This document shows positions 3,391 through 46,315 of a stretch of 49,628 nucleotides of DNA, piece by piece. Where the stretch lies: the NCBI GenBank assembly GCA_017436575.1, contig JAFSCU010000039.1, positions 1 to 49,628 on the forward strand, given 5' to 3'. Origin of the DNA: Oscillospiraceae bacterium. GTDB taxonomy: Bacteria > Bacillota > Clostridia > Oscillospirales > Ruminococcaceae. The notes under the pieces are model-generated. The model was not told the DNA's origin. It searched no databases and worked only from the letters and a program-made list of their open reading frames with translations. Position 1 is the first letter of the stretch. The number at the start of each line of letters is the position of its first letter. The translations under genes and the position numbers were made by a program.

Positions 3391-3415
3391 TTTCACTGCC
3401 CTTTCTGTTTTATTT

Positions 3416-15900: not shown

Positions 15901-16837
15901 CAACAGCATTACTGTGCTTTCACGAAATACACCGGCAGAGGATTTCATCTTTGAAGAAAAGATATTCATTGATAATGGCTGGTGCTGGACTGCCTGTCAG
16001 GGCAGGGGAGACAGGCTGTACATCGGCTGCGGCAATTCGGTTTACCTGTATGCTGACGGTCGCCGGGAAATGGTGGCACAATACAGAAATAAGGTGGAAA
16101 GCCTGTACTGGGCAGAGGATGAAGACATGTTGTATGTGGCCACAGGAAACAGTGTAAAAGAACTGGATACAGGCAGAAATCACTCTGAAACAAAGACAAC
16201 GGTGCTGAAAAACCGTCCTCTTACCTTTGAAATAAGTAGTAAAGGGCTGCTGGTGGGCACCACATCAGCTGAAAAAGACAAAGCGGTGATTTATAGTCTG
16301 CAGGGCAAAAAGCCTGCAGAGGTAAAAACATCAGAAACAGCCGGCTGGTACAGAAGCCTGCAGAATACAGGCGGCGGGTTTGTTGCGGCTGGCCTGTACA
16401 ACGGAAACTCACATTATTCTGTTGTGTATTCTGACAGCTTTTCGGAAAAATATATACTTTCAGGGCATACAGGCTATACCACCTGTGCAAAGCTGGTTTC
16501 ACAAGGAGAAAACATTGTCTTTGCCAGTTGTAGTTATGACGGCACCGTTAACTTGTACGCTGTAAACAGTGAAAGTGAAAAAACACTGCAGCCATACAAA
16601 ACAATACCGTTTGACAATGGCAGGGTGTATGATATAGCTGTGGACGATACAACCATATATGCCTGCGCAGAAGACGGCAGTGTGTACAGAATTGACACAG
16701 AAACAGGGGACAGAAGTATGCTGTATCACAATACTGACCTGTGGATAAGCCGCAGCGACCTGGAAAACCTGTACACGGACAGCAAAATTTCTGCAAATAC
16801 ACTTGAGGCACTGAAAACAATGAAGAATAAAATATAA
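12986..16837 (+). CDS. NACHT/STAND ATPase with C-terminal beta-propeller
   Basis: A 1283-residue multidomain protein. Residues 1-230 form an unknown N-terminal region, the place where STAND proteins carry their effector. Residues ~236-450 are the NTPase: Walker A QQGGAGKTTLL (Lys249) and Walker B ITLFIDGINEA (Asp323), the latter typical of NACHT. A helical STAND-like arm follows to ~590. Residues ~600-1270 are repeated beta strands of WD40/PQQ type, with one clear WD40 unit near residue 1160 (LSGHTGYTTCAKL then SCSYDGTVNLYAV). STAND ATPases with propeller sensors are used in antiphage defence (Avs-like) and in signalling; the propeller would sense and the N-terminus act. Monocistronic, ending at a 15-base-pair terminator. 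The defence role is inference from architecture. Confidence 0.82.
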   Translation: MEKYFVGTQSFSAKKFVFDNLVVAAGGKNNNREVTAFLNQWDRNNVIFFTDENSERQINGTKSKFAGYFTGAKDEKWVKTRYTDKNKKYHSLASLADSLVDYLQEDADFYGLLSTVADGLAVMKTEANHTGYEEKGYRPQVLDELTEYITAQLAECGKSGQRRKREVYARGAVAVLTYFVSNGMTFMKTEERIAPGMEKYLDALPARVPHYDDRLVCYLHYDGGQRTLEYVAYREKYIFVHAQQGGAGKTTLLVETARNLASKGKKTVFIQGKKVDRAPEKGNFLIGQIAEMCDDWRQLAEMTNPFAVIKKRGINQNITLFIDGINEATAAGQKRLLEEIIDLQARTAVAIVVSSRYEHSLLEKTGFCRVELASLAPEKILGGTKLEQYLKTDRELQEYLKKPMFLAEYMAPDCTSVRLADLIEKRHIRDVEKAGGDKDILTAYLAAFVHSTYREKGRQMYFTKQQLDRFVAENPSGNNTEYVYQQICSIWSAEGQTVAYPHENIRDWLIANNIAAEIADNRDCYATVTQFFSGDVVYPRFVKKLVKELADGGKVMECLREYSLSPQQWHSDKTAATTGIMAGIFGAEYGLHQLNLTAFRFDRPVADVYLYDSKVSDYTFNKNDMTSAVFALEWDENREQLYAVTRNAVIVYDKKLKQLAATDFGGNGRHIVYSRQDRENIAFVTADRQAYIYNKQAGTVSRVLEDRQVYAVAPCAGGFVVGARGSVAIIRGADIRWTDIETEFPAIPAEVVGGRIVYGTGTEIRMTDGKTDRLLWSAQQLVVAHRAVLDDMEISRIVSDGPGRYFVMLRKPGVTLLCHVSVMAGADSRSYVIALLDGRDQGEDEKEKSSLMGTVSIDSMKFNDIKKDGEYLWCGQNTGYIFVYRRIEGVWKFCDCIKSLGGKFGESVESLCRFDNRLAAALSSRSLVLLDVAAAGGDIILTESQVVKGSNIGVRRLVLSRDRLKMYSINFNNSITVLSRNTPAEDFIFEEKIFIDNGWCWTACQGRGDRLYIGCGNSVYLYADGRREMVAQYRNKVESLYWAEDEDMLYVATGNSVKELDTGRNHSETKTTVLKNRPLTFEISSKGLLVGTTSAEKDKAVIYSLQGKKPAEVKTSETAGWYRSLQNTGGGFVAAGLYNGNSHYSVVYSDSFSEKYILSGHTGYTTCAKLVSQGENIVFASCSYDGTVNLYAVNSESEKTLQPYKTIPFDNGRVYDIAVDDTTIYACAEDGSVYRIDTETGDRSMLYHNTDLWISRSDLENLYTDSKISANTLEALKTMKNKI

Positions 16838-16840
16838 TTA

Positions 16841-16874
16841 ACACACCCCATCCGGTTATCCGGATGGGGTGTGT
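16841..16874. terminator. Bidirectional terminator between convergent genes
   Basis: A perfect 15-base-pair inverted repeat (ACACACCCCATCCGG with its complement) around TTAT, between the NACHT gene and the HAD gene. The T-tail is poor, so termination efficiency is uncertain. Confidence 0.75.
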
Positions 16875-16878
16875 TCTG

Positions 16879-17616
16879 CTACTTGTTTTCTTCATAGAGA
16901 AGCTGCAGTTTGATGCTTTTTATTGCTCTGGCTACATCTTTTTCAGTCAACCCTGTATTCTTATCTGTGATAATCAGGCTGCCAAAGCTCTCTGGTTTTT
17001 CCCATAAATCACTGAAGAACTGCCCGGGGTCGTCGTCCAGCACCACAAAGGCTTTTACCCTGTTTTCAATCATCCAGTCCGCAATTTCCTCCTCTCTTAT
17101 GTTGGCATGACCTGTTTTTGAGTAGATTTGCAGTTCTGCCTGCGCGAATGATTCTTCAATCAATCTGCCGGCTTCGGTATTTGTCTGCTGCCAGTAATCG
17201 CGCCAGTAGGTAGTTAACACTATGGCACCGCCTGTGGCGTCTGCCAGTTGTTTCAGCAGCTTCATTTTTTCAGGGTCAAGCCAGTGAGTGTTGGTTCTTT
17301 TTTCAGGAATCAACACACCGTCAAAGTCTGTAAAAATAACCACATCAGGGCCGATTTTTGCATCAGAGCGGATAATATTTATTGCTTCGTTATACATAGC
17401 TTCAATTGAATCCAGCGGCAGGTCGTAAACTATATCGTTAAGGAGTGACTGCATTTTTTCTTTCGGTGTATTGTCATCAAAAGAGAGCACAGGCACTCTG
17501 GCTCCAACTGACTGGATTGTAAAGGCCAGCAGGCGTTGCAGCTGATGCTGTGTCAGCTGGAAATTGATTACTCCTGCCAGACCGTCTCTCATTCTGATGT
17601 ATGAAATTTTTTTCAT
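16879..17616 (-). CDS. HAD-superfamily protein of the RNA-repair-associated type
   Basis: A 245-residue protein. Residues ~92-245 form a HAD hydrolase domain: motif I FTDFDGVLI (Asp97 nucleophile, Asp99 acid/base), motif II VLTTYWR near Thr135, and the acidic motif IV VVLDDDPG (Asp194-196). Short cap-less HAD domains with the TYWR motif resemble the HAD domain of 'Swiss Army Knife' RNA repair proteins, a family statement from memory. The first ~90 residues are unknown. It lies 15 bases after the sigma factor gene with AAAGGAGATATATA in between, so it is co-transcribed with it. Possible job: phosphatase acting on nucleic acid ends. Confidence 0.75.
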   Translation of the reverse strand: MKKISYIRMRDGLAGVINFQLTQHQLQRLLAFTIQSVGARVPVLSFDDNTPKEKMQSLLNDIVYDLPLDSIEAMYNEAINIIRSDAKIGPDVVIFTDFDGVLIPEKRTNTHWLDPEKMKLLKQLADATGGAIVLTTYWRDYWQQTNTEAGRLIEESFAQAELQIYSKTGHANIREEEIADWMIENRVKAFVVLDDDPGQFFSDLWEKPESFGSLIITDKNTGLTEKDVARAIKSIKLQLLYEENK

Positions 17617-17631
17617 AATATATATCTCCTT

Positions 17632-18525
17632 TCAGGCTGCATAATTACAGAGGAAGTTGTGGAAATCATCGTTTTTCAGTATCTTTACCGCATTTATATA
17701 AGCATAATGAATCTGACGGGCAGTTTTGCCTAGGGCTTTTGCAATTTCTGTGTCTGTCATCATAATGCCGTCCAATATGCCCAGTTTCATAACCACAACG
17801 TTGTACTGCAGGGTGGAAAGACAGCTTTTCAGCTGATTATGCAGAGTAATACGGTTGATGATTTCTTCTTCCAGTCTTTCGTTGGAGTCCAGTTCATCCT
17901 GTAATGTGCGGTCTTTGTCATCGCTTTCATTACCTACAGGTTTGTCCAGGGAAATTGTTTTGATGCGGTTTAACAGGGTGTATGCCTTTATCACTTCTTT
18001 TTCTGAAAGATCAGTGCCGGCCATAACTTCTTCCACATCAGGTGACATACCGTTTTCAGCGCGGTAAATACTGTCAAATCTTTCCACATTGAAAACTGCC
18101 CAGCGCTTGTCTTCCGGCAGTCTGATGTCAGTAGCTGCTGAAATTGCTTTTTTAATAGTCTTTTCAATGCAGCTTGTGGCGTATGTAGACAGGGCATAAC
18201 CTTTGTCCGGGTCATAATTGTCCACCGCACGGATAAGAGCCTGGTTGCCGAGGGCAATTCTGTCCATAAAGCTGATAAGGGTGTTGTCGTTGAATTTGTG
18301 TGCAACAGCCACCACCAGGCGCAGATTGTGGACAATCAGTTTTTCTCTGGCGGCTTTGTCGCCGTTTTTTGCCTGTCTGGCCAGACTGTTCTGGTCTTTC
18401 AGCAATTCAAAACCGCTGATATCCTTCATATACTGTTTAGAGAGATAGTCTTCGTCAAATATAATATCTTTGTCTGTGGTGTTTTCCTGCTTGAATACGC
18501 CTGTTTCATAAATTTTTGCTGCCAT
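17632..18525 (-). CDS. Plasmid-encoded sigma-70 family factor
   Basis: A 297-residue sigma factor that would direct RNA polymerase to a special promoter set. Region 2 is clear: NLRLVVAVAHKF, SFMDRIALGNQALIRAVDNYDP, then YALSTYATSCIEKTIKKAI. Region 3 contains LSEKEVIKAYTLLNR and SLDKPVGNE, and region 4 (DTEIAKALGKTARQIHYAY) is the -35-binding HTH. Region 1.1 is absent, as in group 2/3 factors. I start it at ATG 18525 behind GAGGAGAAAG, not at the upstream ATG 18579. The region 2.4 helix has Cys-Ile-Glu-Lys where housekeeping factors have Trp-Trp-Ile-Arg, so promoter recognition probably differs. Candidate targets are the unusual promoters near 20040-20811. Confidence 0.85.
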   Translation of the reverse strand: MAAKIYETGVFKQENTTDKDIIFDEDYLSKQYMKDISGFELLKDQNSLARQAKNGDKAAREKLIVHNLRLVVAVAHKFNDNTLISFMDRIALGNQALIRAVDNYDPDKGYALSTYATSCIEKTIKKAISAATDIRLPEDKRWAVFNVERFDSIYRAENGMSPDVEEVMAGTDLSEKEVIKAYTLLNRIKTISLDKPVGNESDDKDRTLQDELDSNERLEEEIINRITLHNQLKSCLSTLQYNVVVMKLGILDGIMMTDTEIAKALGKTARQIHYAYINAVKILKNDDFHNFLCNYAA

Positions 18526-18606
18526 AATCTTTCTCCTCGTCTGTATTTTTTCTGATGTCATTTTACTTAATTTCAGCATCAGGAACTATGTAAAAACGAG
18601 GGTGTT

Positions 18607-18647
18607 TTTTTGTAAAAAAATACAAAACGGCCGTTTTTTTACAAAAA
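18607..18647. promoter_or_regulatory. Nested inverted repeat before the sigma gene
   Basis: TTTTTGTAAAAAAA (18607-18620) and its exact complement (18634-18647) flank a 13-base centre holding AACGGCCGTT. Located between the zinc-ribbon stop and the sigma start codon, it could be an operator or an attenuator. Confidence 0.55.
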
Positions 18648-18665
18648 CAGGCTTTTGTCAGAAAA

Positions 18666-18764
18666 TTACCGGTTATTCAGCACTATACCGCAGACAGGAC
18701 ATAGATGGGGCTTTTTGTTTTTGTTGCAGACAAACTTGCCGCAGCTGCAGAAAAACAGTTCCAT
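18666..18764 (-). CDS. 32-residue zinc-ribbon protein
   Basis: A very short gene with a near-perfect AAAGGAGG site ten bases before its ATG. The product has two metal-binding knuckles, FCSCGKFVC and LCPVCG, the layout of a rubredoxin-type zinc ribbon, in a chain of only 32 residues. Such mini-ribbons can bind nucleic acid or a protein partner. It lies between the membrane protein and the sigma factor on the same strand and could modulate the latter; this is inference from position. Confidence 0.75.
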   Translation of the reverse strand: MELFFCSCGKFVCNKNKKPHLCPVCGIVLNNR

Positions 18765-18878
18765 ACGTTTACCTCCTTTCACAAGTAAAAGTACAGAAGT
18801 GGTACGCCTGTATTTTATCGGGATTTTACAGGATAATGACAAAAGGGCAGCGTATGCTGCCCTATGGGTATGCTGTTG

Positions 18879-20009
18879 TCAGTAAGTTGATTTCAGATAT
18901 GGGTCTTCAGGTGATTTCTCAGGCAAACTGGCTGCATGGAATTTCTCAAGCTGCTGCAATACTTTTCGTATCGGGCCGGCATGGTAGGCACGTTCCGGCT
19001 CGTAAAGGTCGAAGATATATTCACTTTCTAAAGATATGCCTCCAAAGATGTTGCTTACCATCATACCGTAATAATAATCTTCTGCTATTTCAGAAACATA
19101 ATTCATAAAACTTTCAGCCAGCACATTGTCAATTGTATCCAGCAATTTTACCTGCTTGTCAGATAGTGTTTCAGGATAAACTGTAATGATAAAGCTGGCA
19201 TCATGTTTTTTTACAAATCCTGTAAACTTTTCAATAAAATCCTGCAGAATTGTTCCTGTCCGTTTACCCACATTGTCAAATACAAACACTATGTTTTTAT
19301 ATCCCAGATGGTTTATCAGCCTGTGGAATTCCCCAGCGGTCATTTCGCTGTCAAAAACAGACTGCAGCATTGTGTAAAGCTGCTTTTCAAAGGCTTTGCC
19401 CTGTATGTATGCAGAGGCATCAAACACAAAAATTTCTTTATCGCACTGTTTTACAGCCTTTGCGGTATCCTCTTTGTCCATAGACAGACTGCTGTAAAGG
19501 CTGTTAGCCATAATCGTACCGCCTTTTTCCCTGAAAGTCTCGCTGTTTCGGCAGAGCATTTTCAGGTGGGTGGTCAGGCCGTCTCCGCTTCTGGCACACA
19601 CTACACGGCGCAGCTGTGGACAGAATTCAAAATCAGTGTTTGTCTGTATATAATCTGTGCCGGTATTTTCTGCTAATATGGCAAGGTTTCCTTTGAATTC
19701 ATCAATGTCAACACTTTTGATATCTTTCAGCGGCCACAGCACCTGTTTTGGTTTGATATACACAGATGACTGATTGTGTTTGGTTTCATCATCACCAGTA
19801 TATTCTTCAGCCCAGTCTGCCAGATTATTTCTGTAATACCACAGGGCATCTTCCGCATTGTCTTTTTTTGTGTAAATCAGCCAGATAATCACACCGGCCA
19901 TTGCTGCTATTGTAAGTATCACAGGCAGGACAGACCGCAGAAAGGACACACTGTCCAGTAAGAAAAGGTAAAGGTCCGGGGCCACACGCCATAATTGTTG
20001 CATTTTCAT
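18879..20009 (-). CDS. Membrane-anchored protein with a decayed P-loop domain
   Basis: A 376-residue protein of no recognised family. One membrane helix spans residues ~27-46 (SVLPVILTIAAMAGVIIWLI), with the rest probably cytosolic because KKD follows the helix. The soluble part reads like a P-loop NTPase that lost its lysine: ARSGDGLTTH at 139-147 stands where GxxxxGKS/T would be, and hydrophobic strands ending in Asp (IFVFDAS, Asp197; IVFVFDN, Asp245) stand where Walker B and a sensor would be. It may bind but not hydrolyse nucleotide. GGAGG precedes the ATG. It heads a minus-strand series with the zinc ribbon, sigma factor and HAD protein, although gaps of 110-140 bases may hold extra promoters. 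Confidence 0.6.
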   Translation of the reverse strand: MKMQQLWRVAPDLYLFLLDSVSFLRSVLPVILTIAAMAGVIIWLIYTKKDNAEDALWYYRNNLADWAEEYTGDDETKHNQSSVYIKPKQVLWPLKDIKSVDIDEFKGNLAILAENTGTDYIQTNTDFEFCPQLRRVVCARSGDGLTTHLKMLCRNSETFREKGGTIMANSLYSSLSMDKEDTAKAVKQCDKEIFVFDASAYIQGKAFEKQLYTMLQSVFDSEMTAGEFHRLINHLGYKNIVFVFDNVGKRTGTILQDFIEKFTGFVKKHDASFIITVYPETLSDKQVKLLDTIDNVLAESFMNYVSEIAEDYYYGMMVSNIFGGISLESEYIFDLYEPERAYHAGPIRKVLQQLEKFHAASLPEKSPEDPYLKSTY

Positions 20010-20038
20010 ATAATATACCTCCGTGGCTTATTGAATAC

Positions 20039-20104
20039 ATTATACCTGATTTTTTGCAGGAATCGACACTTGTTTGTCAGAAAGCGGGGCAAAACAGATA
20101 AAAT
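20039..20104. promoter_or_regulatory. Divergent promoter pair, 20009(-) and 20131(+)
   Basis: Plus strand: TTGTCA (20074), 19 bases, TAAAAT (20099), with AAAACAGATA covering the -10. Minus strand: TGTCGA (20068-20063), 18 bases, TATAAT (20044-20039). The plus-strand site matches the one at 20781-20811 closely, including the unusual 19-base spacer. Confidence 0.5.
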
Positions 20105-20130
20105 TATACATGGAAAAAGGAGGTGTGTTT

Positions 20131-20736
20131 ATGAACAGCATAGAAACAGGTATGAATATTATGGAGTTTGTGCAGGAAGATGGAAGCAGAGTTGACAGTG
20201 TGGAATTTATGGCAGGTAAATACATTCAGAGCTGGAGAACCAGAATCCGGCAGGATTACAAGCTGAACACAGTGACCGTCACGGTGTATTCAGAACATAA
20301 GCTGAACAGCGAAGGAAATTTATATGTTTCCTGGTACTGCAATTGTATCATGAATGTTTTTTCAAGATTCAGAGTGGGAGTGGACGGCCGGGGCTATTTT
20401 TATGCTCAGCTGGATGAAAGCATAAAGCATGAACCTCTCACTGTGAAGCAGATAAGGAATATGGTTGGCAGTTGCATAACAATTATGGATTGTTATCTGC
20501 CGGTGGTTGAAAAAATTTCAGAGTTGAAACATATTACCTATATTGAAGGAGACCCGAAGATGAAGTATACAGATTATAGCATTACCAGAAAAATCAACGA
20601 TATGATGGCCCGCCTGGAAGACCATATGGAAGAGGTGAAAGAAAATTGGGATGTGGACAAAGACGGCGAAATGCCTCAAGATGAAGAATGTGAAAACTGG
20701 GCATACTATGACGAGGATGGTTTTTATGATGAATAA
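20131..20736 (+). CDS. Hypothetical protein
   Basis: A 201-residue protein of unknown function. The first half is beta-rich (TVTVTVYSEHK, LYVSWYCNC, RGYFYAQLDE), the second half helical, and the tail is strongly acidic (DEECENWAYYDEDGFYDE). There is no signal peptide or membrane helix. The start at 20131 is fixed by AAAGGAGGTG; an upstream in-frame ATG at 20074 overlaps the promoter. It has its own terminator. The protein lies between the sigma operon and the repeat-protein region. Confidence 0.7.
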   Translation: MNSIETGMNIMEFVQEDGSRVDSVEFMAGKYIQSWRTRIRQDYKLNTVTVTVYSEHKLNSEGNLYVSWYCNCIMNVFSRFRVGVDGRGYFYAQLDESIKHEPLTVKQIRNMVGSCITIMDCYLPVVEKISELKHITYIEGDPKMKYTDYSITRKINDMMARLEDHMEEVKENWDVDKDGEMPQDEECENWAYYDEDGFYDE

Positions 20737-20739
20737 AAC

Positions 20740-20757
20740 GCAGGCAGAAATGCCTGC
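20740..20757 (+). terminator. Terminator after the 201-residue hypothetical gene
   Basis: GCAGGCA, GAAA loop, TGCCTGC, then TTTCG and a short T-run. Confidence 0.65.
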
Positions 20758-20780
20758 TTTCGTGATTTTTATATGGAATT

Positions 20781-20811
20781 TTGTCACTTTAATGGAAAAA
20801 ACAGATATAAC
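20781..20811 (+). promoter_or_regulatory. Promoter of the 138-residue gene
   Basis: TTGTCA (20781), 19 bases, TATAAC (20806), with AAAAACAGATA across the -10. It shares layout and sequence with the plus-strand promoter at 20074-20104, which suggests the same, perhaps non-housekeeping, sigma factor. Confidence 0.5.
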
Positions 20812-20855
20812 ATATATAACAATATGCAGCAGGAAAGCGAAAAAGGAGAATTATT

Positions 20856-21272
20856 ATGAAAGTACTTTTTGATACAGACGAAATCCGCGCAGAAATCATA
20901 CTTACAGAAGAGGAAAACGAAGATGCAGAGAAAGCTGTACAATCACTTATCTTTGGTCTGGCAACTATAGCATTTTCTTTTATGAAAGAAAACATACTAT
21001 CAAAAAATTATGAAGAAACAAAAAGCTTTGTAGTTGATATGTTTTCTGAAATACTGAATATGATGATAGAAAAAGATAGAGAGCATACATTGGCCAGAGC
21101 CGGCAGCGCAGACAGGGAACTGGAAGATATGGTGGCTGAACTGCGAAGAATGATGACAGGCGGACCATTCAGTGAGGAAGAAATTGACAACTTTCTTGAC
21201 TTGATTATAAGAACCGGCAGTGTTGAAGAAGCCATACGGTTCCTTATGGGCCTGGAGGATGAAGAAGAATAA
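20856..21272 (+). CDS. Hypothetical acidic helical protein
   Basis: A 138-residue acidic protein, probably all helix, with no recognised family. The C-terminal ~40 residues (GPFSEEEIDNFLDLIIRTGSVEEAIRFLMG) look like two packed helices and are partly duplicated in the fragment at 21325-21438. AAAGGAG precedes the ATG. Role unknown; it follows the 201-residue hypothetical gene and shares its promoter type. Confidence 0.7.
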   Translation: MKVLFDTDEIRAEIILTEEENEDAEKAVQSLIFGLATIAFSFMKENILSKNYEETKSFVVDMFSEILNMMIEKDREHTLARAGSADRELEDMVAELRRMMTGGPFSEEEIDNFLDLIIRTGSVEEAIRFLMGLEDEEE

Positions 21273-21324
21273 CCTATGAACACAAAAGCAGAAGCATGGC
21301 TGTACACAGAAATGCAGACAAAGA

Positions 21325-21438
21325 ATGGACAGTGGCTCTTTTGGCGCGGAAGATATTGAACTTTTTCTTGATGTTACTATGAGATGTGGCGGTGTGAAAG
21401 AAGCTATAGGCTTGCTTCTGGACAGAGATTTTAAATAG
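21325..21438 (+). pseudogene. 3' fragment duplicated from the 138-residue gene
   Basis: This open stretch reads MDSGSFGAEDIELFLDV, then TMRCGGVKEAIGLLLDRDFK and a stop. It parallels the end of the preceding gene (GPFSEEEIDNFLDL, then GSVEEAIRFLMG). No ribosome binding site precedes it, and the sequence just upstream (from 21276) is in another frame, so it looks like the broken remains of a tandem paralogue. Confidence 0.65.
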
Positions 21439-21452
21439 GAACAGGGTAGATA

Positions 21453-21490
21453 AAAACGGGAACAGACTGATTACAGTCTGTTCCCGTTTT
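21453..21490. terminator. Bidirectional terminator
   Basis: A perfect 17-base-pair stem (AAAACGGGAACAGACTG at 21453 and its complement ending in TTTT at 21490) with an ATTA loop. The A and T runs make it work on both strands. Confidence 0.9.
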
Positions 21491-21606
21491 TATCTTTGTT
21501 TTTTGTCATACAGCAGGATTTGTTGCTGTTATTGGTCTTTGTACAACTGCTCCAGAAAGGCGTTCCATTCGCTGTCCATATGGGTAAAATGGCTCGCAAC
21601 GCTGTT

Positions 21607-21785
21607 TTATGTGGAAGATACCGGCTTTTTCCAGTATACAAAACTGCTTGTAAATTTTTTGATTGTTTTGTAATTGAAAGTAACGGCAATACCGGACATG
21701 GAAGGGCCGTTGCGATAAACATATACAGGATAGCCGTTTTACGGGGCGCTGCTTGCCATAGAGCTTTTGTTGTTCAAATTGTCAC
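21607..21785 (-). pseudogene. Decayed copy of the last FxW repeat unit
   Basis: Read on the minus strand it encodes YPVYVYRNGPSMSGIAVTF, then NYKTIKKFTSSFVYWKKP and a stop. This is the second half of unit 10 of the adjacent repeat protein (YPVYVYRKGPSLYDIAVTS, NYKTIKKFTSSFAYWKKP). About 155 bases align with 21902-22060 with only scattered differences. It has no start and directly follows the intact gene, so it is a tandem-duplication remnant. Confidence 0.85.
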
Positions 21786-21787
21786 TA

Positions 21788-24700
21788 TCAGCGCAGTTTG
21801 TTCAGGTAGTTTGTAAAATTCTGGCTTTCTTCTTCATCTATCCGGTCCAGAAATTCGTCTATGTCATCCTCCAGGTCATCAATAATACTATCGACAGAAG
21901 GTGCCGGTTTTTTCCAGTATGCAAAACTGCTTGTAAATTTTTTGATTGTTTTGTAATTGGAAGTAACAGCAATGTCATACAGGGAAGGACCTTTGCGATA
22001 AACATATACAGGATATTCGTTTTCCGGCGCGGTACTTGTCATAGGGCTCTTGTGGTTCAACAGGTATTTGCGCTTTTCGCAGGCTGCCATAAAGTTGTAG
22101 TAAGCCTGTTCGTTTTCGATGACAACCGCGAACTGCTTGTTTCTGAAACCATCCCAGTCCAGATAAGGAACATATTCTTTTTCCACCTGTGTTTTTACAG
22201 CGGAACCCGCTGCAGGCTGTGGTTTGGGCTGTGGGGCCGGCGCTGGCTTTGGCTGCGGTGCCGGTGTATATTTCCACGGCAGAATCTGTGGGGTATATTC
22301 TTCACATGTTTCGGAATCATTCGCTAAATCTATAGTACCATCTATATTGGTGCCATAAAAAATATAAACTATTTTGCCGTCTTCGATGGCAGAGGCATAA
22401 CTATAATTTGTTGCTTTAACGCCATCATACCAGGTAATGCCGCGTTTGTCACATTCCAGCATAAAGTTATCGTAGGCCTCTTTATTATCAACAGAAACAG
22501 AAATCAGTCTGTCTTTAAACCGTTGCCAGCTGAAGGCAGTTACAGGCTTTTCAGCCGGTTTTGCAGGGTATTTACAGTCCCAGTTAACAATAGTTATGTT
22601 ATGCTCTTTGTAGTAATACTCGTAATCCCATCCAATTGCAGTTTCATCTTCATCTTCATAAGCAAAATGAATGTAAAATATTTCATCCTCAAAATATTCA
22701 TAGCGGCGTGCCACTGTTCTTGTACCGAATGGCCATGTATACCTTTGTTCTTCACAGGCCTGCATAAAGTCGTCATAAACTCTTTTACTGTCGATACGTA
22801 CGGCGATTTGTCTGTTACGGAAAGCATCCCAGCTGAAAACAGGTGGTGTATATTTCCACTGCAGAATCTGTGGAGTGTACCGTTCGCATGCTTCGGGATA
22901 ACTCGTAAAATCTATTGTTCCTTCTTTATTTATACCATAAATAAAATAGACTGTTTCTTTGCCTTTGCGAATAGAATCAAAACTAGACGATGTTGTTTTT
23001 TTACTGTTTGACCAGGTAATGTTCTGCCTGTCACATAGTGACATAAAGTCGTCAAAAGCTGCTTTACTGTCAACCGATACCGAAACTTGTCTGTTTTTAA
23101 ACAACTCCCAGGTAAAGGTGTTTACAGCTTTTTCAGCCGGTTTTGCTGGGTACTTGCATTCCCAGTCTGCAATTACCATAGAATTTTTTTTACAGTAATC
23201 CGCATCAGCGGTCTTCGCAATGGCGTTTTCTGTCTCGTCACTGTAAAGCACGTAGAAGGTTTTGCCACCTTTTGCAAAATAAGCATAACGGTAGGCAACT
23301 GTTCTGTTACCATCTTTCCATTTAAGATTGTTGTCTTCACAGGCCTGCATAAAGTCATCATAAACCCTTTTACTGTCTATGCGCACGGCTATCTCTCTGT
23401 TTCTGAACCCACTCCAGCTGAAAACAGGTGGTATGTATATCCAGTCCACAATCTGTATGGAATGGTCTTTGCAATATTTTTCGTCACTTGTCCATATGAT
23501 GGAATTTGCTTTTTTATCATTATGAGCGATATAAAAATCCTTTACACGGTTGGTAAAGAAAGTTTTGTTTGTCAGAGCGAAAAATTCATATGAAACTTCT
23601 TTTGCGTTTTTTCCGTCGCTCCATTTCAGGCATCTCAAAGTGCAGTTATCTATAAAGTTTGTATATGTGGCTTCGTTGTTAATACGTACGGCCACCTTCC
23701 TTTTACGGAAATTATCCCATGTAAATTCGGGCACAGGTTCTGTTTTTGGCTGTGGTTTAGATTCCGGCTTGGGCTGTGGTTTTGGCTGCACCTGCGGTGT
23801 GTATTTCCACCGGATAACCTGTGGTGTATATCGTTCACAGACCTTTGCATCGTAGGAGTAAAATATTGTTCCGTCTGCTATGGTTCCGTAAAAGATATAA
23901 ATAGTTTTCTTGCCTTTGCGCAGAGTGTCATAACTGTAGGTATCCGCTGTTTTGCCATCAAACCAGCAGATTTGTTGTGTACAGCATTCCTTTATGAAAT
24001 CATCATAAGCAGCCTGATTGTCAACAGATACTGAAATCAATCTGTCTTTAAACCGTTGCCAGTTGAATTCTGTCACAGGCTTTGTATCTGCTTTTACAGG
24101 AGATGTGCCTTTCCAGTCAACAATCTGCATAGAGCGGTCTTTGCAGTATTTTTCTTCAGAAGTGCTGGCAATGGCACTTTCTTTGTCGTTGCTGTAATAA
24201 ATGTAGATAGTTTTGCCTTTTGTGCCGAATAAAGTTTTTACCTGTTCTGAAACATATGCATAGCGCACTGTCTCTGGCAGGCTGCCGCCTTCCCATTTAA
24301 GCCTCTGGAACGCACAGGCTTGCATAAAGTTTGTATATGAAGCTTCACTGTCAATTCGTACAGCTATTTTTTTCAGGCGGAAATAATCCCATGTAAATTC
24401 AGGTACAGGTTTTGGTTTTGGCTTTTCAGTCTGTGTTTTGGCGGCAGGTTTATTTTCCTGTTTTTTAACCACAGTATCTGTTTTTGCGGGCGGTGTGTAT
24501 TCCCATTCCACAATATGTGGGGCATAGTATTTGCAGGTATTCTCGTCAAGAGAGTAGCTCATTGTCCTTGGGTATATTACACCATAAGTAATATATACAG
24601 GCCCGCCCTTTGGTGCGATAGACGCATATTTATAGCTTGCTGCTTTTTCGCCCTCTGGCCATGTTATATTTTCTTTTTCACACAGTGCTGTAAAATTATC

Positions 24701-25072
24701 AAATGCAGCCGCATTGTAAATGCTGACTGATATCAGCTGATTTCTGAAGTTATCCCAGCTGAAAACAGGTGGTGAAGCAGGGGCTGCTTCCTGAATCTGC
24801 CAGGCGGTTACTTTAATATGGCTGTGCATCACAGGGCTGTAACCCAGCCGTTTTGGCCGGGATTTATCGCGGTATATGTACAAAGAATCCTGCAGCAGGA
24901 CCGGCAACCGCTGTACACGCATAAATGCGTCAAAATCAGACAGTTTTTTTCCTTGTTGCCAGGAAAAACCTCTGGATGAGCATACTGAAATAAAATCTTT
25001 GTAATCTTTATATGTACGGGTTTCTACCACAAAATCATTGTTCAAAAATCCGCTCCAATCGAAATTCTGCAT
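21788..25072 (-). CDS. Giant FxW-repeat protein, ten ~90-residue units
   Basis: A 1094-residue protein made of ten units starting at residues 4, 104, 226, 336, 450, 551, 653, 746, 847 and 971. A unit reads Phe-x-Trp-x-x-Phe-(Arg/Lys)-(Asn/Asp)-Arg-x-(Ile/Val)-(Ala/Ser)-Val, Tyr-x-x-Phe-x-x-x-Cys, (Ile/Leu)-x-Trp-x-x-Gly, (Val/Ile)-Tyr-(Ile/Phe)-x-Tyr, Cys-x-x-(Tyr/Ser), and closes with (Ile/Val)-x-x-Trp. Two subtypes exist: A (units 3, 5, 6, 8: IAVRID, YCK, QIVDW) and B (units 2, 4, 7, 9: ISVSVD, GTI, YTPQI, WKYTP). Pro-Lys/Gln linkers separate some units. There is no signal peptide or membrane helix. I start at ATG 25072 because AGGAGA lies just before it, inside the longer frame from 25090. 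The unit also occurs in the EssC-like ATPase (~34725-35340) and the membrane protein (39347-39616). It may be a scaffold, adaptor or T7-secreted protein. I do not recognise the family. Confidence 0.88.
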   Translation of the reverse strand: MQNFDWSGFLNNDFVVETRTYKDYKDFISVCSSRGFSWQQGKKLSDFDAFMRVQRLPVLLQDSLYIYRDKSRPKRLGYSPVMHSHIKVTAWQIQEAAPASPPVFSWDNFRNQLISVSIYNAAAFDNFTALCEKENITWPEGEKAASYKYASIAPKGGPVYITYGVIYPRTMSYSLDENTCKYYAPHIVEWEYTPPAKTDTVVKKQENKPAAKTQTEKPKPKPVPEFTWDYFRLKKIAVRIDSEASYTNFMQACAFQRLKWEGGSLPETVRYAYVSEQVKTLFGTKGKTIYIYYSNDKESAIASTSEEKYCKDRSMQIVDWKGTSPVKADTKPVTEFNWQRFKDRLISVSVDNQAAYDDFIKECCTQQICWFDGKTADTYSYDTLRKGKKTIYIFYGTIADGTIFYSYDAKVCERYTPQVIRWKYTPQVQPKPQPKPESKPQPKTEPVPEFTWDNFRKRKVAVRINNEATYTNFIDNCTLRCLKWSDGKNAKEVSYEFFALTNKTFFTNRVKDFYIAHNDKKANSIIWTSDEKYCKDHSIQIVDWIYIPPVFSWSGFRNREIAVRIDSKRVYDDFMQACEDNNLKWKDGNRTVAYRYAYFAKGGKTFYVLYSDETENAIAKTADADYCKKNSMVIADWECKYPAKPAEKAVNTFTWELFKNRQVSVSVDSKAAFDDFMSLCDRQNITWSNSKKTTSSSFDSIRKGKETVYFIYGINKEGTIDFTSYPEACERYTPQILQWKYTPPVFSWDAFRNRQIAVRIDSKRVYDDFMQACEEQRYTWPFGTRTVARRYEYFEDEIFYIHFAYEDEDETAIGWDYEYYYKEHNITIVNWDCKYPAKPAEKPVTAFSWQRFKDRLISVSVDNKEAYDNFMLECDKRGITWYDGVKATNYSYASAIEDGKIVYIFYGTNIDGTIDLANDSETCEEYTPQILPWKYTPAPQPKPAPAPQPKPQPAAGSAVKTQVEKEYVPYLDWDGFRNKQFAVVIENEQAYYNFMAACEKRKYLLNHKSPMTSTAPENEYPVYVYRKGPSLYDIAVTSNYKTIKKFTSSFAYWKKPAPSVDSIIDDLEDDIDEFLDRIDEEESQNFTNYLNKLR

Positions 25073-25524
25073 AAAAAATCTCCTGCTCATATCATAATGT
25101 CTTGTTGGGTATATGATATATAAATAGTATACATATACAAACGATTAATATTCTATGCATATTATTGCCAAATTTTCAGGGGACTTTTTATCGTTTTGAT
25201 GAAAATATAAACTGATTTTTATATTTATGAAAAAAAGAGGCAGAAAACTGTCAGAACAGGATATAGTATATATAATACGGGTAGCGTTATATATTACTAT
25301 TATATAAAACCGTTACAGGCAGAACATCAGCAGTGGCTGTATAAAGTAGATGCAGTTTTTGTACTGAATCGGCTTATGTTGTAAATCCCAAAAATAATAT
25401 TTTTTTTTAGTGATTTATACAAATTTGACAAAAAGCACGGAAATTTGTTTAAAAATAAGTTTTTATTTAATATAATTACAGTTATAAAATAAATATGCAG
25501 ATTTTAACTGAAAGGGAGCTTTCT
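25073..25524. other. Divergent intergenic region before the secretion-like cluster
   Basis: About 450 AT-rich bases between the repeat protein and the cluster. GTATATG (25109-25115) and CATATAC (25132-25138) form a dyad in the likely promoter of the repeat gene. No clear consensus promoter is visible for the plus-strand cluster, although TTGACA-like and AATATAAT-like elements occur near 25428 and 25470. No gene seen. Confidence 0.5.
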
Positions 25525-26130
25525 ATGTCATACAACAATTTTTCTCAGGACGCGTTGATGGATACATATAATTCCTACAAACGCAAATATGAAAATGCTG
25601 CGGCAGAGAAACGCCGGTCTGAAAAGAAAGAGGCCAGCTATGTTTCCCAGAGAAAAAAGAAAAAAACTGCCATAAGCACCAAGTCCGTACAGAAGAAAAA
25701 CCTGGAAAAACGTCTGGCTGGAATAAAAGACATAATCAAAATGTTTGACGGTAACGGCGGATGGTTTTCAACTGATATTCCGGATACTGTAAAAGCTGCC
25801 AACAAAAAAGCAGAAAAAGCAGATGGAGCCTACAGGGAAAGCATCAGGCTGTCAGGCGGTGCACCGGCTGCCAGCATAAGCACTGCGTTTTACACAAAAT
25901 CTGTTTCTGAAGATGTAAATTCCGGCAGCGCTTATTCAGAGTTTAAAAAAGAAAAAAGCAATGTTGAAAAAAATATAGAATCACTGACATCACAGATTAA
26001 AAAGCTGAATGCAGAGGTTGAAGACCTGAACAAAAAAATAAAAAACTGCAATGCACAGCAGGACAGGCTGGAATCCAAAATGCGCAGCTATCTGTTTGAA
26101 ATGACGATAATTAAAAAACTGATTTATTGA
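25525..26130 (+). CDS. Coiled-coil protein upstream of the effector
   Basis: A 201-residue Lys/Glu-rich protein. Residues 1-75 and 140-190 are long amphipathic helices (EKRRSEKKEASYVSQRKKKK; NIESLTSQIKKLNAEVEDLN) that would form a coiled-coil hairpin. In Firmicutes T7SS loci small helical proteins encoded directly before a toxin act as targeting partners or chaperones, and this gene is in that place, 14 bases before the metalloprotease gene. I start it at ATG 25525 (GGGAG upstream), not 25495. No sequence family recognised; the partner role is inference. Confidence 0.65.
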   Translation: MSYNNFSQDALMDTYNSYKRKYENAAAEKRRSEKKEASYVSQRKKKKTAISTKSVQKKNLEKRLAGIKDIIKMFDGNGGWFSTDIPDTVKAANKKAEKADGAYRESIRLSGGAPAASISTAFYTKSVSEDVNSGSAYSEFKKEKSNVEKNIESLTSQIKKLNAEVEDLNKKIKNCNAQQDRLESKMRSYLFEMTIIKKLIY

Positions 26131-26144
26131 TACAGAGGTTTTTT

Positions 26145-28100
26145 ATGAGAATAGAAATTAACGGCAGAGGCGGTTTCGGCGGAGGTGCCACCCTGGACGA
26201 TTTCCACGATACCATGACACAACTGAATAACAGCATTGAAGATGTTATAGCTGATTTCAAGGCGGTAAAAACAGCCACGAACAGCCTGAACGGTGGCGTG
26301 GGCAATCTATCTGCGGCTATGGCCAGTGTGGATGCCCGTATTGCGTCTGAAAAAGAGCGGATATATTATGTAAGCAGAGTAAACGATAAATACAGCAGCC
26401 TTATCAATACTGTTGCCAGCATAGACAACCGGGTGGCAGTAATGGTGGCCCAGAACCGCAAAGAAGTATATCTGCTTTATCCGCAGTCTATGACAGCAGA
26501 CGCACCGTGGTATGAGCAAGTGATAGAGTTTGTAGGTGAATCTCTTGATTCTGCCTGGGATTTTCTGACTGACCATAAAAACGAAATCATCAGTTTTGCA
26601 CTTGGTGGTCCTGTAGGTCTTATTATAAACAGTTATTTACGGACCGAAGAAGGCCAGAAATGGTGGGATGAACACTGGTATGACGTTGTTAACATCGGTG
26701 TGACCGCTATCGTTGCTGTGGGTTCTGCCCGGGTACTCATTCTTTTTCCTGGCGTGGGGGTTGTTTTGGTATCTGCAGTTGGCGGTGGTATTTTGGCCGC
26801 TACACGAGCTACTACAACGCAGATAAGAGATAAAGGAAAGATAGTAGACGGATGGCAGATATTAGATGAAACTATTAAAGGTGTGCTTGCGGGCGCAGTT
26901 ACAGGCTATATCGGTGGTTACATAGGTAATGCAGCAACCGGAATTTTTGGAGAAACACCAGTGGTTGTCCGCTATTTGGGAAAAGGTATGGCTGAAGTTG
27001 GCAGTGGTATTGCAACCCGTGGTTTGGCGGCAGCTATAGAAACCTTTGACACAGAAAAAGGTGTGAACTGGAAGGCAGTTCGTAATCAGGCGTTGGACCC
27101 TGCGTCTATGATGATGGATTTTGCCATTGGCGAGGCAACAGAAGCAATCCCTGTAGACAAATACGCAAACAAGTTCAGAAATGCTGTATTGGGAGACGCG
27201 GCAACACCGCCTGCTAAAGTATTGGATGTATATTCCAAAAAGATGGACCCGGATGTTGCACCATTAAAACCTGGCACAAAAGGCATTGTTGATTTAGAAT
27301 ACAACAACAACGTGCGGAAACACTTGTATGATAATAATCTTGTCAAAGGCTCTTATTTCAATGGTATGGATTCACGCGCTGTTAATGAAATTGGCGATAC
27401 AATAGTAGCGCTTAAAAATAGAGTGCTTGGTTTGGAAATTGGCTATGTGACTACACAGGGGGCTATGAAAAACCGGATTACATCCGATATTACTGATTAC
27501 GTAAAAACTGTAGCCAATGTAACTGATGATGTGGCAAAACAGTATGCAGACGATGTTATAAAGTATCGGACAGATATTGCTGATGACAGTCTGGCAAGTG
27601 TAGTGGTGTTTAATCCGGATATGGCGGGAAATGACCAGAACCGGCGCAAGATGTTAGATTGGCTTGGTTCGAAATATAACAACAGTATTGTGGTTAATGA
27701 TGTTCTTGCATCTAATTATGATGAGGGTATCAGATATCTTAATGACATGGTAGCTATTGGCGCCAGCCCTGAGGGCTGTAATGATTTCTCATCATTAATG
27801 GCCCATGAAATGACCCATCTGATTGATAATATGGTAGGTGCATCGTCTAATAAGGCTATAATAACCGAACTTATTAATTTGGATGCTACTGGAAAAACTG
27901 GAAAAGTCATTTCTTCATATGCAGCTACAAGCGGCTTTGATGATAAGATTGCGGAAGCGGTCTCCAAGGTATGGAAAAAAGGCACATGGGATGATGTTGC
28001 CAATGGAATATTGTCTGATGACCCTTGTGATACCATTACAAAATTAGTTTTGGACCTTTTAGATCCGAACCAGCCAACCCTTACCCGAATACTCCGATAA
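26145..28100 (+). CDS. Predicted T7SS effector with zinc-metallopeptidase toxin domain
   Basis: A 651-residue protein. Residues ~1-120 are helical, like the targeting region of LXG-type substrates (LNNSIEDVIADFKAVKTATN). Residues ~145-290 are glycine/alanine/valine-rich and hydrophobic, resembling translocation regions. The C-terminal ~130 residues carry a zincin motif LMAHEMTHLID (His554, Glu555, His558), followed by SSYAATSGFDDKIAEAVS whose Glu604 fits the third ligand in the S-x-Y-A...A-E pattern of polymorphic zincin toxins. The order of targeting, translocation and toxin parts fits a secreted antibacterial effector. ATG 26145 follows AGAGG; TTG 26127 is an alternative. No obvious immunity gene follows; the TPR gene is next. 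Substrate unknown. Confidence 0.72.
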   Translation: MRIEINGRGGFGGGATLDDFHDTMTQLNNSIEDVIADFKAVKTATNSLNGGVGNLSAAMASVDARIASEKERIYYVSRVNDKYSSLINTVASIDNRVAVMVAQNRKEVYLLYPQSMTADAPWYEQVIEFVGESLDSAWDFLTDHKNEIISFALGGPVGLIINSYLRTEEGQKWWDEHWYDVVNIGVTAIVAVGSARVLILFPGVGVVLVSAVGGGILAATRATTTQIRDKGKIVDGWQILDETIKGVLAGAVTGYIGGYIGNAATGIFGETPVVVRYLGKGMAEVGSGIATRGLAAAIETFDTEKGVNWKAVRNQALDPASMMMDFAIGEATEAIPVDKYANKFRNAVLGDAATPPAKVLDVYSKKMDPDVAPLKPGTKGIVDLEYNNNVRKHLYDNNLVKGSYFNGMDSRAVNEIGDTIVALKNRVLGLEIGYVTTQGAMKNRITSDITDYVKTVANVTDDVAKQYADDVIKYRTDIADDSLASVVVFNPDMAGNDQNRRKMLDWLGSKYNNSIVVNDVLASNYDEGIRYLNDMVAIGASPEGCNDFSSLMAHEMTHLIDNMVGASSNKAIITELINLDATGKTGKVISSYAATSGFDDKIAEAVSKVWKKGTWDDVANGILSDDPCDTITKLVLDLLDPNQPTLTRILR

Positions 28101-28116
28101 GAGAGGAATATACAAG

Positions 28117-29709
28117 ATGACCAATTTTAATAATACAATTGATTTCAAGCAGAACAAAGAGGAGCATCTGCACTTTGCAGACACCGCCTTTGCAAACAGA
28201 CAGTATGACGAGGCGCTGAAATGGTACGGCAGAGTGCTTGAAGCGGAACCGGGCAACATCCATGCACTGTTCCATACAGGGGTTATCACCCTGTCCCAGG
28301 GCAGACATGAAGAAAGCCTGCAGTATTTTGCAAAAGCAAGAGAACTGGACCCGGACAATGGTGATACAGCCTATACATACGGTACAGCCTTTTACTATAC
28401 AAAAAACTTTGCAAAAGCTTTTGAACAGTATGTGGAAGCCGAAAGACTGGGATGCCGCGAAGATGTGCTGGTGCGTATGTACTACAAAATGGCATCTATC
28501 TGCATAGGCCGCAGAGATACAAAATCAGCCCGGATTTACCTGAAAAAAGGTGATGAAGCAGATACATCAGGTGTAGTCAGCCTGCACCCACAGATTATCA
28601 GGGAAAAGTTCAATATGTACCTGATTCTCAGAGACTTTGAAAATGCTGAAAAATGTTCAGCACAGCTTCTTGCCACAGACCCTTCTGACTTTGACAATTA
28701 TCTGCTGTATGCAAATCTGCTGAAGGAAAAAGGGGATAATGACAAAGCGCTGAAAGTTCTTCTGGATGCTGAAAAATATGTTGACCTTACGGCAGAAGAA
28801 CGTATCCTGCTCAATATGCAGAAAGATGAATTTACTGCTACAACACCGGAGGAAAAAGTGTCTGACAAGTCTGTGAAAATGCTGGAAGACTACTGCAACT
28901 CTGACGATATTTCTGAAGAAGACAGATTTGCAGGTATACTGACACTTACAACACTTCTCATTGAAAAGGGCGATTATGACAAGGTAATTGATTATCTAAA
29001 GCCGTTTGTCGAACTGACTTATGGCACAGAGGATGATTATGTGCCTGTGGAAGAAGCGGCAGAATACGATACCGACCCTGGCTATATAGATGAAGAAACC
29101 TATGATGCTATCCAGAAGGGAATGGATGAATTCCAGGAGATGATGGACACAGGTATGATAGACGTGGATATGATCAGACGGAGTGCCGAAATTGCATATG
29201 ACGAAGACGGCAACGAGTATTATGAATATGATGAATCAGTGTTCCGCACTGAAAACAAATTTTCATCCGGCGATGATGCAGAGGACGCAGAAACCGAAAA
29301 AGAGGCATATGAACTTACTGTCGCAGACAGGGAAAAAGCCCGGTTTACACTTATGACAGCATATATGTGCAAAGATGACTATGCAAAAGCAATAGAAATT
29401 GCCAATACACTGAAACACAGTGAAACCAGATTCTATGCACACCACGGCCTGTACACAGCTACTGCACTGAAAATGAAACAGGAAGGTTATACTGACCGGG
29501 TGCAGGCAGAATATGCTAAAGCACTTGCGTATTTCAAGGCGCGTAGCTTTGAAGACCCGTCTGATTCACTGGCACAGGTGTTCAGGGCACGCCTTTATGT
29601 GGAACAGGGTAAAAACTACAAAGCACGAGAAATTGCAAATCTTCTTTCTGAAAATGACAGACAGGCTGTCCTCAGATATGTTGACAGTTATGCACAATTC
29701 AGGAGGTAG
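28117..29709 (+). CDS. TPR-repeat protein
   Basis: A 530-residue protein with at least four tetratricopeptide repeats in residues ~15-215 (ADTAFANRQYDEALKWYGRV; ALFHTGVITLSQGRHEESLQ; YTYGTAFYYTKNFAKAFEQY) and more in ~400-520 (TAYMCKDDYAKAIEIANTL; ARLYVEQGKNYKAREIANLL). An acidic, Tyr-rich insert (residues ~300-385) separates them. There is no signal peptide. TPR proteins serve as assembly platforms or chaperones. Set between the effector and the WXG100-like genes, it is either a secretion accessory or the effector's cytosolic antagonist. GAGAGG precedes ATG 28117, and its stop overlaps the ribosome binding site of the next gene. Confidence 0.8.
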   Translation: MTNFNNTIDFKQNKEEHLHFADTAFANRQYDEALKWYGRVLEAEPGNIHALFHTGVITLSQGRHEESLQYFAKARELDPDNGDTAYTYGTAFYYTKNFAKAFEQYVEAERLGCREDVLVRMYYKMASICIGRRDTKSARIYLKKGDEADTSGVVSLHPQIIREKFNMYLILRDFENAEKCSAQLLATDPSDFDNYLLYANLLKEKGDNDKALKVLLDAEKYVDLTAEERILLNMQKDEFTATTPEEKVSDKSVKMLEDYCNSDDISEEDRFAGILTLTTLLIEKGDYDKVIDYLKPFVELTYGTEDDYVPVEEAAEYDTDPGYIDEETYDAIQKGMDEFQEMMDTGMIDVDMIRRSAEIAYDEDGNEYYEYDESVFRTENKFSSGDDAEDAETEKEAYELTVADREKARFTLMTAYMCKDDYAKAIEIANTLKHSETRFYAHHGLYTATALKMKQEGYTDRVQAEYAKALAYFKARSFEDPSDSLAQVFRARLYVEQGKNYKAREIANLLSENDRQAVLRYVDSYAQFRR

Positions 29710-29714
29710 CCATT

Positions 29715-30035
29715 ATGAGCACTCTCAAAAAGGATATTGTGCTGGACCAGGAAGCCTTTGACGCGGCCATCAGGGATTTTTCAGAATTAAGCACAAAACT
29801 GGATTCACTGAACAACGATGTGGAACAGATGCTGGGCACGGTGAAAAAAGGCTTTGATACCCCGTCGGGGCGCCAGCTGGTTAACCTGTGTGAAACCAGA
29901 CTGCGCCAGCCACTGGACGCACAGAAGACGGTTTTGCAGGTTATTTCACAGACACTGGCTTCTGCAAAAACCTCATATCAGACAGTTTTCAACGAATATG
30001 AAGAACTTCAACAATTGATAAAAAATATTAAATAA
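29715..30035 (+). CDS. WXG100-like helical hairpin protein 1
   Basis: A 106-residue protein with two amphipathic helices (DAAIRDFSELSTKLDSLNND and KTVLQVISQTLASAKTSYQT) around a turn GFDTPSGRQLV, where the canonical Trp-x-Gly is replaced by Gly-Phe-Asp...Gly. Size, helix pattern and position next to other Esx-like genes support membership in the WXG100 superfamily, whose members are secreted as dimers by EssC/EccC ATPases. AGGAGG precedes the ATG. Confidence 0.72.
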   Translation: MSTLKKDIVLDQEAFDAAIRDFSELSTKLDSLNNDVEQMLGTVKKGFDTPSGRQLVNLCETRLRQPLDAQKTVLQVISQTLASAKTSYQTVFNEYEELQQLIKNIK

Positions 30036-30069
30036 ATTACATATAACCGCAAAAAGAAAGGAATTTATT

Positions 30070-30429: not shown

Positions 30430-30463
30430 TTAAAACAGGAAATATATAACAAGGAGACTAATC

Positions 30464-35561: not shown

Positions 35562-35566
35562 TTTTT

Positions 35567-43399: not shown

Positions 43400-43422
43400 T
43401 CTAGTCACTCCTTTTCACCATT

Positions 43423-46262: not shown

Positions 46263-46315
46263 ATTTCCTCCTAAAAGCATTTATAATATTCTAATAAAAA
46301 TAAATAATATTATCA

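Follow-up and report, generated by a model that had tools for sequence, protein, structure and literature searches.

Variants of the type VII secretion system (T7SS) that come with kinases, phosphatases and FHA domains are known (T7SSc-T7SSj), and plasmid carriage of variants other than T7SSa has been called unclear (excerpts of PMC11217815). In T7SSb, the FHA domains of EssC contact the pseudokinase of EssB (same excerpts of PMC11217815). As to the motor itself, excerpts of PMC6954902 describe how the linker between ATPase domains in TcEccC and GtEssC can occupy a pocket and inhibit, and how in ESX-1 the break between EccCa1 and EccCb1 separates ATPase domain 1 of the EccC motor from domain 2. 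Here we describe a T7SS locus with a split EssC at 25495-40240 of contig JAFSCU010000039.1 (Oscillospiraceae bacterium, assembly GCA_017436575.1), whose full 49,628 nucleotides we call the window, together with a gene on the opposite strand (21788-25072) for a protein made of ten repeated FxW units. The same unit occurs inside EssC and inside a membrane protein of the locus, which suggests a plug-in docking module for the secretion machine.

The repeat in the ten-unit protein is real. A first-pass annotation, made from the sequence alone, had read this gene as encoding 1094 residues in ten units of ~90 residues, and both readings held: the gene runs on the minus strand, and motif, alignment and leave-one-out profiles all return the ten units. 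The open reading frame caller placed the start at ATG 25090 (1100 aa), but ATG 25072 is the better choice because AGGAG, a Shine-Dalgarno sequence, stands 7 nt upstream of it. When each of the 12 complete units (the ten of the array, one in EssC and one in the membrane protein) was scored with a profile of the other 11, it reached 36-113 bits, whereas shuffling (200 times per unit) never gave more than 11.0 bits. The two subtypes that had been described as alternating are likewise real, namely type A (units U3, U5, U6 and U8) and type B (U2, U4, U7 and U9), and they mostly alternate; the alternation fails at U5 and U6, both of type A, and U1 and U10 are divergent. Of the Cys and aromatic positions said to be invariant, the Cys (column 28) is present in all ten array units and absent from the EssC unit, while the Trp of column 35 is missing in U10. 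The proposed duplication of an A-B dimer (U6-U7 and U8-U9, with the linker YPAKPAEK common to both) can be seen in the DNA (182 nt, 77%, 585 nt apart), and the linkers between domains of the array are proline-rich. A decayed copy of the end of U10 follows the stop codon, in a region (21526-21777) with three in-frame stops. The units are under protein-level constraint: the ratio of nonsynonymous to synonymous substitution rates (dN/dS) was computable in 18 of the 24 closest pairs printed and below 1 in all of them (0.13-0.58), rough figures given that dS in these pairs is 1.0-3.0, near or past saturation. A tree of the units, in which good support was limited to 2 of the 20 inner branches and U1 and U10 were long, was too weak for us to draw claims of origin from it; we likewise set aside the promoter sites predicted between the divergent genes (8 vs. 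3.9 expected).

The main clue to function, which goes beyond the first-pass annotation, is the presence of units inside EssC and inside the T7SS membrane component. That annotation had pointed to extra units at 34830-35090 and 39347-39616; both exist, extending to 35096 and 39619. In the first half of the split motor (EssC-N) the insertion comes after the first ATPase domain, in the order second half-unit, full unit, linker, first half-unit. The profile ranges of the half-units overlap by 13 positions, but alignment with relatives assigns the beginning of the second half-unit, up to YTRF (954-958), to EssC itself, so that both breaks lie near the loop before the TIYIFYG strand. The insertion may represent a circularly permuted unit that wraps around the full one, or a piece of the array cut in phase. 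To collect relatives, genome contigs were scanned with an alignment of three EssC-N proteins, giving 36 loci (two of them, L080 on G071:C202 and L081 on G056:C201, also belong to that alignment), mostly from Ruminococcus, Ruminococcaceae and Clostridia/Clostridiales, many of them rumen, with the last few distant (one Flavobacteriales). The relevant EssC stretch was readable in 30 of the 36, none of which carries an FxW insertion (L054 and L071 have none in their EssC sequence); the distance from GRAYL to TQL is 267 aa here vs. 67-71 aa in the 28 relatives measured. A profile of the 12 units at E 1 matched none of the 36 loci. The FxW units are an addition to the T7SS machine.

In the membrane protein the unit precedes a single transmembrane segment (244-268) and a discoidin domain, the latter well over curated cut-offs (93.9 vs. 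27 bits for PF25302; 122.5 vs. 38 for NF047619, NADase-type glycan-binding). Because KK precedes the segment, we place the unit in the cytosol and the discoidin outside. By sequence, then, all three unit-bearing sites would be cytosolic: the soluble array, EssC behind its ATPase domain, and the KK-flanked side of the membrane segment.

A weak tblastn match of unit 8 (E 2) fell in gp50 (QOI66140.1) of the Ruminococcus gnavus phage phiRg507T2_3, a protein that fits a phage domain pattern without a family name. The unit profile matched gp50 at E 4.7e-7 over 40 columns, and hhalign of that profile with ten phage sequences gave a probability of 97.3 and E 2.4e-11, pairing columns 1-88 with 2-82; the alignment scored 59.4, whereas 200 column shuffles gave no more than 20.0 and reversing the alignment gave 11.2. 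With search size set to 1000, the unit profile matched all ten phage sequences (E <1e-4), and the phage profile matched 9 of 12 units (E <3e-4), with U10, U2 and the membrane-protein unit weak or unmatched. A search in the other direction, with the gp50 domain against 147 genomes of the order (E 0.01), found only the host, in three units at E 0.0016-0.0065; another phage profile (A4) matched none of 249 genomes of the phylum at a threshold at which it also missed the window, and so says little. In further phage carriers (L116-L128) the domain is single and N-terminal, in open frames of 177-376 residues. Together these searches make the FxW unit a full-length homologue of an N-terminal domain that uncharacterised phage proteins carry in single copy. 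The phage domain has no confident Pfam or PHROGs family, and gp50 is not named in the paper on phiRg507T2_3 (PMC10072058). Phage carriers (L090 592-1185 and L091-L103) also share a second, C-terminal conserved stretch (NLELIWER and surroundings).

The first-pass annotation could name no family for the unit, and we concur: single units had no confident Pfam or PHROGs match, the ten-unit protein, scanned whole, had no confident NCBIfam family, and PDB profile searches with the unit returned nothing below E 0.1. Its reading of the unit as an apparently undescribed domain holds only in part, as the unit does not stand alone and is a divergent tandem form of the phage domain family. Weak matches were rejected when below cut-off, at a unit boundary or found in only one of the 12 units: DUF3425 (PF11905; 23.3 vs. 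a cut-off of 27.1 bits, at a unit boundary), XPG_I_2 in first scans, and phrog_4897 and phrog_9112 (one unit each; the phrog_9112 profile across 61 genomes matched only the window, E 9.5e-4). A tblastn search of phages with unit 9 gave 16 records at E 4-8, of which a Vibrio record was judged a chance match, its membrane-type protein belonging to a different frame or family; the same was concluded for the best other genome of the order (G663, E 0.0025), by eye a metallo-beta-lactamase-type lipoprotein.

Within what was searched, in sets that may omit records very close to the window, the units are restricted to one plasmid locus. At E <= 0.001 the profile matched 13 times in the 2.1-Mb host genome, always within the same three genes of one plasmid, and a fuller search added one further match in EssC and the decayed copy. 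At E 0.001 the host was the only carrier among 396 genomes of the family and, with a broader profile, among 295 of the order; at E 0.05 it was alone among 16 of the genus (these samples overlap). Of 394 order genomes, 11 had matches at E <= 0.05, the host and ten others that were weak and about at chance level. The whole ten-unit protein matched no plasmid or phage record, and viral contigs held no relative by that protein, by the type-B units or by the EssC alignment.

Features of the ten-unit gene and the T7SS locus (window positions)
Feature	Positions	Strand	Evidence or comment
Decayed copy of unit 10 end, behind stop codon	21614-21777	-	86% to 21897-22060
Ten-unit FxW protein, 1094 aa	21788-25072	-	No transmembrane or signal-like hydrophobic segment; maximum 19-residue hydropathy 1.16
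Unit 10, divergent, then acidic tail	21899-22162	-	Profile match, leave-one-out
Unit 9, type B	22259-22534	-	Profile match, leave-one-out
Unit 8, type A	22565-22837	-	Profile match, leave-one-out
Unit 7, type B	22841-23116	-	Profile match, leave-one-out
Unit 6, type A	23147-23422	-	Profile match, leave-one-out
Unit 5, type A, 8-residue loop insertion	23426-23725	-	Alignment, profile match, leave-one-out
Unit 4, type B	23792-24067	-	Profile match, leave-one-out
Unit 3, type A, 8-residue loop insertion	24098-24397	-	Alignment, profile match, leave-one-out
Unit 2, type B	24488-24763	-	Profile match, leave-one-out
Unit 1, divergent	24785-25063	-	Motif/alignment, leave-one-out
Coiled-coil-like conserved T7SS operon protein	25495-26130	+	Match in 13/38 loci
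Putative T7SS effector, N-terminus common with relatives, C-terminal HEMTH motif	26127-28100	+	9/38 loci; role putative
TPR protein of operon	28117-29709	+	Pfam; 25/38 loci
Three small WXG100-like or similar proteins (29715, 30070, 30464)	29715-30772	+	Weak Pfam matches for 29715 and 30464
EssC-N, ATPase half, transmembrane 191-215, first FtsK domain	31839-35561	+	TIGR03928 E 1.9e-133, model 3-688; FtsK_SpoIIIE
C-terminal half-unit opening EssC insertion	34689-34829	+	Profile positions 42-89, E 3.8e-5
Full FxW unit in EssC-N	34830-35096	+	Profile match, leave-one-out
N-terminal half-unit closing EssC insertion	35193-35351	+	Profile positions 2-54, E 3.7e-10
EssC-C, second ATPase half	35546-37126	+	TIGR03928 model 785-1248, E 1.2e-41
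WXG100-like protein behind EssC-C	37141-37458	+	TIGR03930 E 4.1e-7, below cut-off
Putative degenerate kinase-like protein	37483-38949	+	Kinase-like by eye; no match in family searches
Membrane protein: N-terminal region, FxW unit, one transmembrane segment (244-268), discoidin	38984-40240	+	PF25302 E 1.4e-26, NF047619 E 1.2e-35
FxW unit in membrane protein	39347-39619	+	Profile match, leave-one-out

The locus has the EssC-type FtsK/SpoIIIE ATPase of a Bacillota T7SS, in halves that score 446.5 and 142.4 bits with TIGR03928, vs. a whole-protein cut-off of 778.4, each half covering part of the model. Matches to the WXG100 family PF06013 were below cut-offs (E 1.1e-4 and 0.0093), and position and relatives support the assignment; the small protein at 30070 had no WXG100 match in the Pfam scan. 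None of the families EssA, EssB, EsaA and EsaB appeared among the 10 window proteins scanned with NCBIfam. The operon is common to the relatives, best conserved with L054, which shares the coiled-coil protein, the effector N-terminus, the TPR protein, the three small proteins, both EssC halves and the fourth small WXG100-like protein; the ten-unit gene and the genes at 37483-38949 and 38984-40240 had no match in the relative loci at E 1e-3. The N-terminus of the putative effector recurs in a row of polymorphic proteins in L054, where four tandem genes (16730-21875) have closely similar N-termini (MHIEIN..GG..GGAS) and different C-termini. Before EssC-N, a gene at 30814-31824 (+) contains an internal repeat (123 nt, 83%), with weak matches (5/38 loci).

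Identical ends are the usual sign of a circular contig. The window, which is the whole contig, begins and ends with the same 141 bases (1-141 and 49488-49628), giving a circle of 49,487 bp. Matches over curated cut-offs identify a Rep3 initiator, ParB and a MobA/MobL relaxase, and a ParA-like protein was recognized by eye; in all likelihood the window is a complete plasmid that can be mobilised. Its other cargo includes a candidate defence pair, PDC-M12A and PDC-M12B (42299-43408 and 41569-42318, minus strand; PADLOC E 1.4e-122 and 4e-85), the second protein being RloB-like below cut-off; a 1283-aa protein (12986-16837, +) whose WD40 and NACHT-type matches are weak and all fail to reach the curated cut-offs; an ECF-type sigma factor (45720-46280, within 45031-46280, minus strand) followed by a putative anti-sigma partner recognized by eye, a possible regulator; and two proteins of the Fic/DOC family (2218-3396 and 3590-4513, minus strand), one of which has a RhuM domain.

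In the 23 relative loci of at least 15 kb, tblastn with proteins of G071 and L054 found a kinase in 19, PP2C in 18 and FHA in 18; over all 36 loci the counts were 21, 22 and 19, which include L080 (that is, G071) and, for PP2C and FHA, L054 matching itself. The window had no tblastn match (E 1e-4) to the relatives' kinase, PP2C or FHA, its contig matched neither the kinase profile PF00069 nor the FHA profile at E <= 10, and the Pfam scan of EssC-N gave no FHA. A strongly degenerate kinase at 37483-38949, recognized by eye, is possible. Apart from the host, three of 148 genomes of the family (L143, L144 and L145) have the discoidin domain at the end of proteins that by eye are transmembrane and Hanks-kinase-like; the FxW unit therefore stands where the kinase stands there.

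The explanation we favor, tentatively and a little short of calling it probable, is that FxW units serve for docking in the cytosol, with the ten-unit protein as a scaffold on the secretion ATPase and its membrane partner. A phage-related unit would have multiplied on the plasmid and spread to three proteins of one T7SS locus, where the soluble ten-unit protein may act as a multivalent scaffold joining the EssC ATPase and the membrane protein, by unit-unit pairing or through a common ligand. On the EssC side the linker that follows ATPase domain 1 would make the contact through its unit and two complementary half-units; on the membrane side it would be made by the inner unit of a protein whose discoidin domain faces outward. 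Docking at the EssC linker may turn the motor on, given that inter-ATPase linkers are autoinhibitory in other EccC/EssC proteins. Because FHA domains contact EssB in T7SSb, because the linker can inhibit, and because kinase, PP2C and FHA matches are lacking here, we propose that FxW modules may replace kinase/FHA docking as the contact between motor and membrane partner. The docking, the scaffold role, the switch, the membrane orientation and the replacement of kinase/FHA control are all things that we infer. A more specific version, in which the plasmid-borne T7SS would have swapped phosphorylation control (kinase, PP2C, FHA) for a docking code of phage-related domains, with a circularly permuted double insertion in the autoinhibitory motor linker, one unit beneath a transmembrane receptor whose outer domain is of sugar-binding type, and a ten-unit scaffold to couple them, is doubtful, and we lowered our estimate of it slightly because the closest relative, L054, also had no kinase match.

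Several observations weigh against the docking scaffold. Docking is deduced from sequence, and it cannot be taken as inherited from the phage relatives because those have no known function. The three carriers could share the module through recombination alone. Only one such plasmid was found, and hence the three-gene set has been seen once; the relatives do without the unit (0 of 36 loci). Co-expression is unsupported because the ten-unit gene lies on the strand opposite to the T7SS operon. L054 has no kinase match, and its PP2C and FHA, assigned by eye, match only themselves; three of the 23 loci (L077, L086 and L089) had none of kinase, PP2C and FHA, and the lack of a kinase is therefore not peculiar to the FxW-bearing locus.

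The units might instead keep the function of the phage domain, for instance binding a phage or host factor, with the ten-unit protein serving as a decoy or sponge in phage defence or counter-defence; in that case the units in T7SS parts would tie secretion to infection by phages. The strong homology to the phage domain and the presence of PDC-M12A/B on the same plasmid speak for such a role. Nonetheless it yields no specific prediction while the phage domain is without known function, units in an ATPase linker and a membrane protein fit a structural role better, and PADLOC at E 0.001 did not match the ten-unit protein, so that we think it unlikely. Still less likely, in our judgment, is a neutral or selfish spread, with pieces of a recombination-prone array landing without selection in essC and in the gene of the membrane protein, both times in frame. 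The EssC piece is indeed cut mid-unit at both ends, near the same unit position, and the stop codon of the array is followed by a decayed copy; against this, dN/dS was below 1 in every computable pair, a neutral insertion of ~196 aa in a motor protein would be unlikely to remain open, and of the whole genome only genes of the T7SS locus were hit. Very improbable is a T7SS substrate forming a surface or intercellular fibre, as a long array of similar domains with proline-rich linkers beside a secretion locus might suggest, since the ten-unit protein has no hydrophobic signal-like segment and no WXG100 or LXG match (Pfam, NCBIfam), and units also occur in cytosolic parts of machine components.

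Returning to the docking scaffold, if it is true then secretion machines can gain new control by domain insertion. The locus links an undescribed phage domain to a testable setting, comprising a T7SS motor, a membrane component and a ten-fold array, and would give a first functional handle on that domain; it would also put on record that the EssC of a T7SS carried by a clostridial plasmid can be split. The open-licence literature searched showed no FxW-like repeat and no split EssC in Clostridia; the word 'split' has 0 occurrences in PMC11217815, and the account of T7SSc-T7SSj in its excerpts contains no FxW-like domain.

Flotillin is a membrane-microdomain protein. As a scaffold reported to help assembly of the Staphylococcus aureus T7SS (excerpts of PMC5718613), it resembles the proposed role of the ten-unit protein by description, and it is not known to have repeated FxW units. 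With T7SSc-T7SSj, as far as the excerpts of PMC11217815 describe them, the locus shares an EssC-type ATPase and has WXG100-like proteins, and its relatives often have kinase, phosphatase and FHA genes like several of those variants; it differs from T7SSc, T7SSe and T7SSj in having no match to a Ser/Thr kinase or PPM phosphatase, and from T7SSb in that its EssC has no FHA match. Compared by position only, the membrane protein is like EssB/YukC of T7SSb, with one transmembrane segment, a cytosolic part and an outer part, but it has no EssB family match, an FxW unit stands in place of the pseudokinase, and a discoidin domain makes up the part taken to lie outside. As in EccCa1/EccCb1 the motor is split, here at a point between positions 688 and 785 of the EssC model that leaves one FtsK domain to the first half, whereas the plasmid sequence is of the Bacillota EssC type and bears FxW units at the end of that half. 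Finally, the R. gnavus phage gp50-type domain shares with the FxW unit the full-length profile match, an FxWxxF start, a W near column 35 and an I-x-W type end; it is ~10 residues shorter, mainly in the second half, and stands as a single copy at the N-terminus of phage proteins of ~180-380 residues, whereas the FxW units stand ten in tandem and inside the T7SS proteins of a plasmid.

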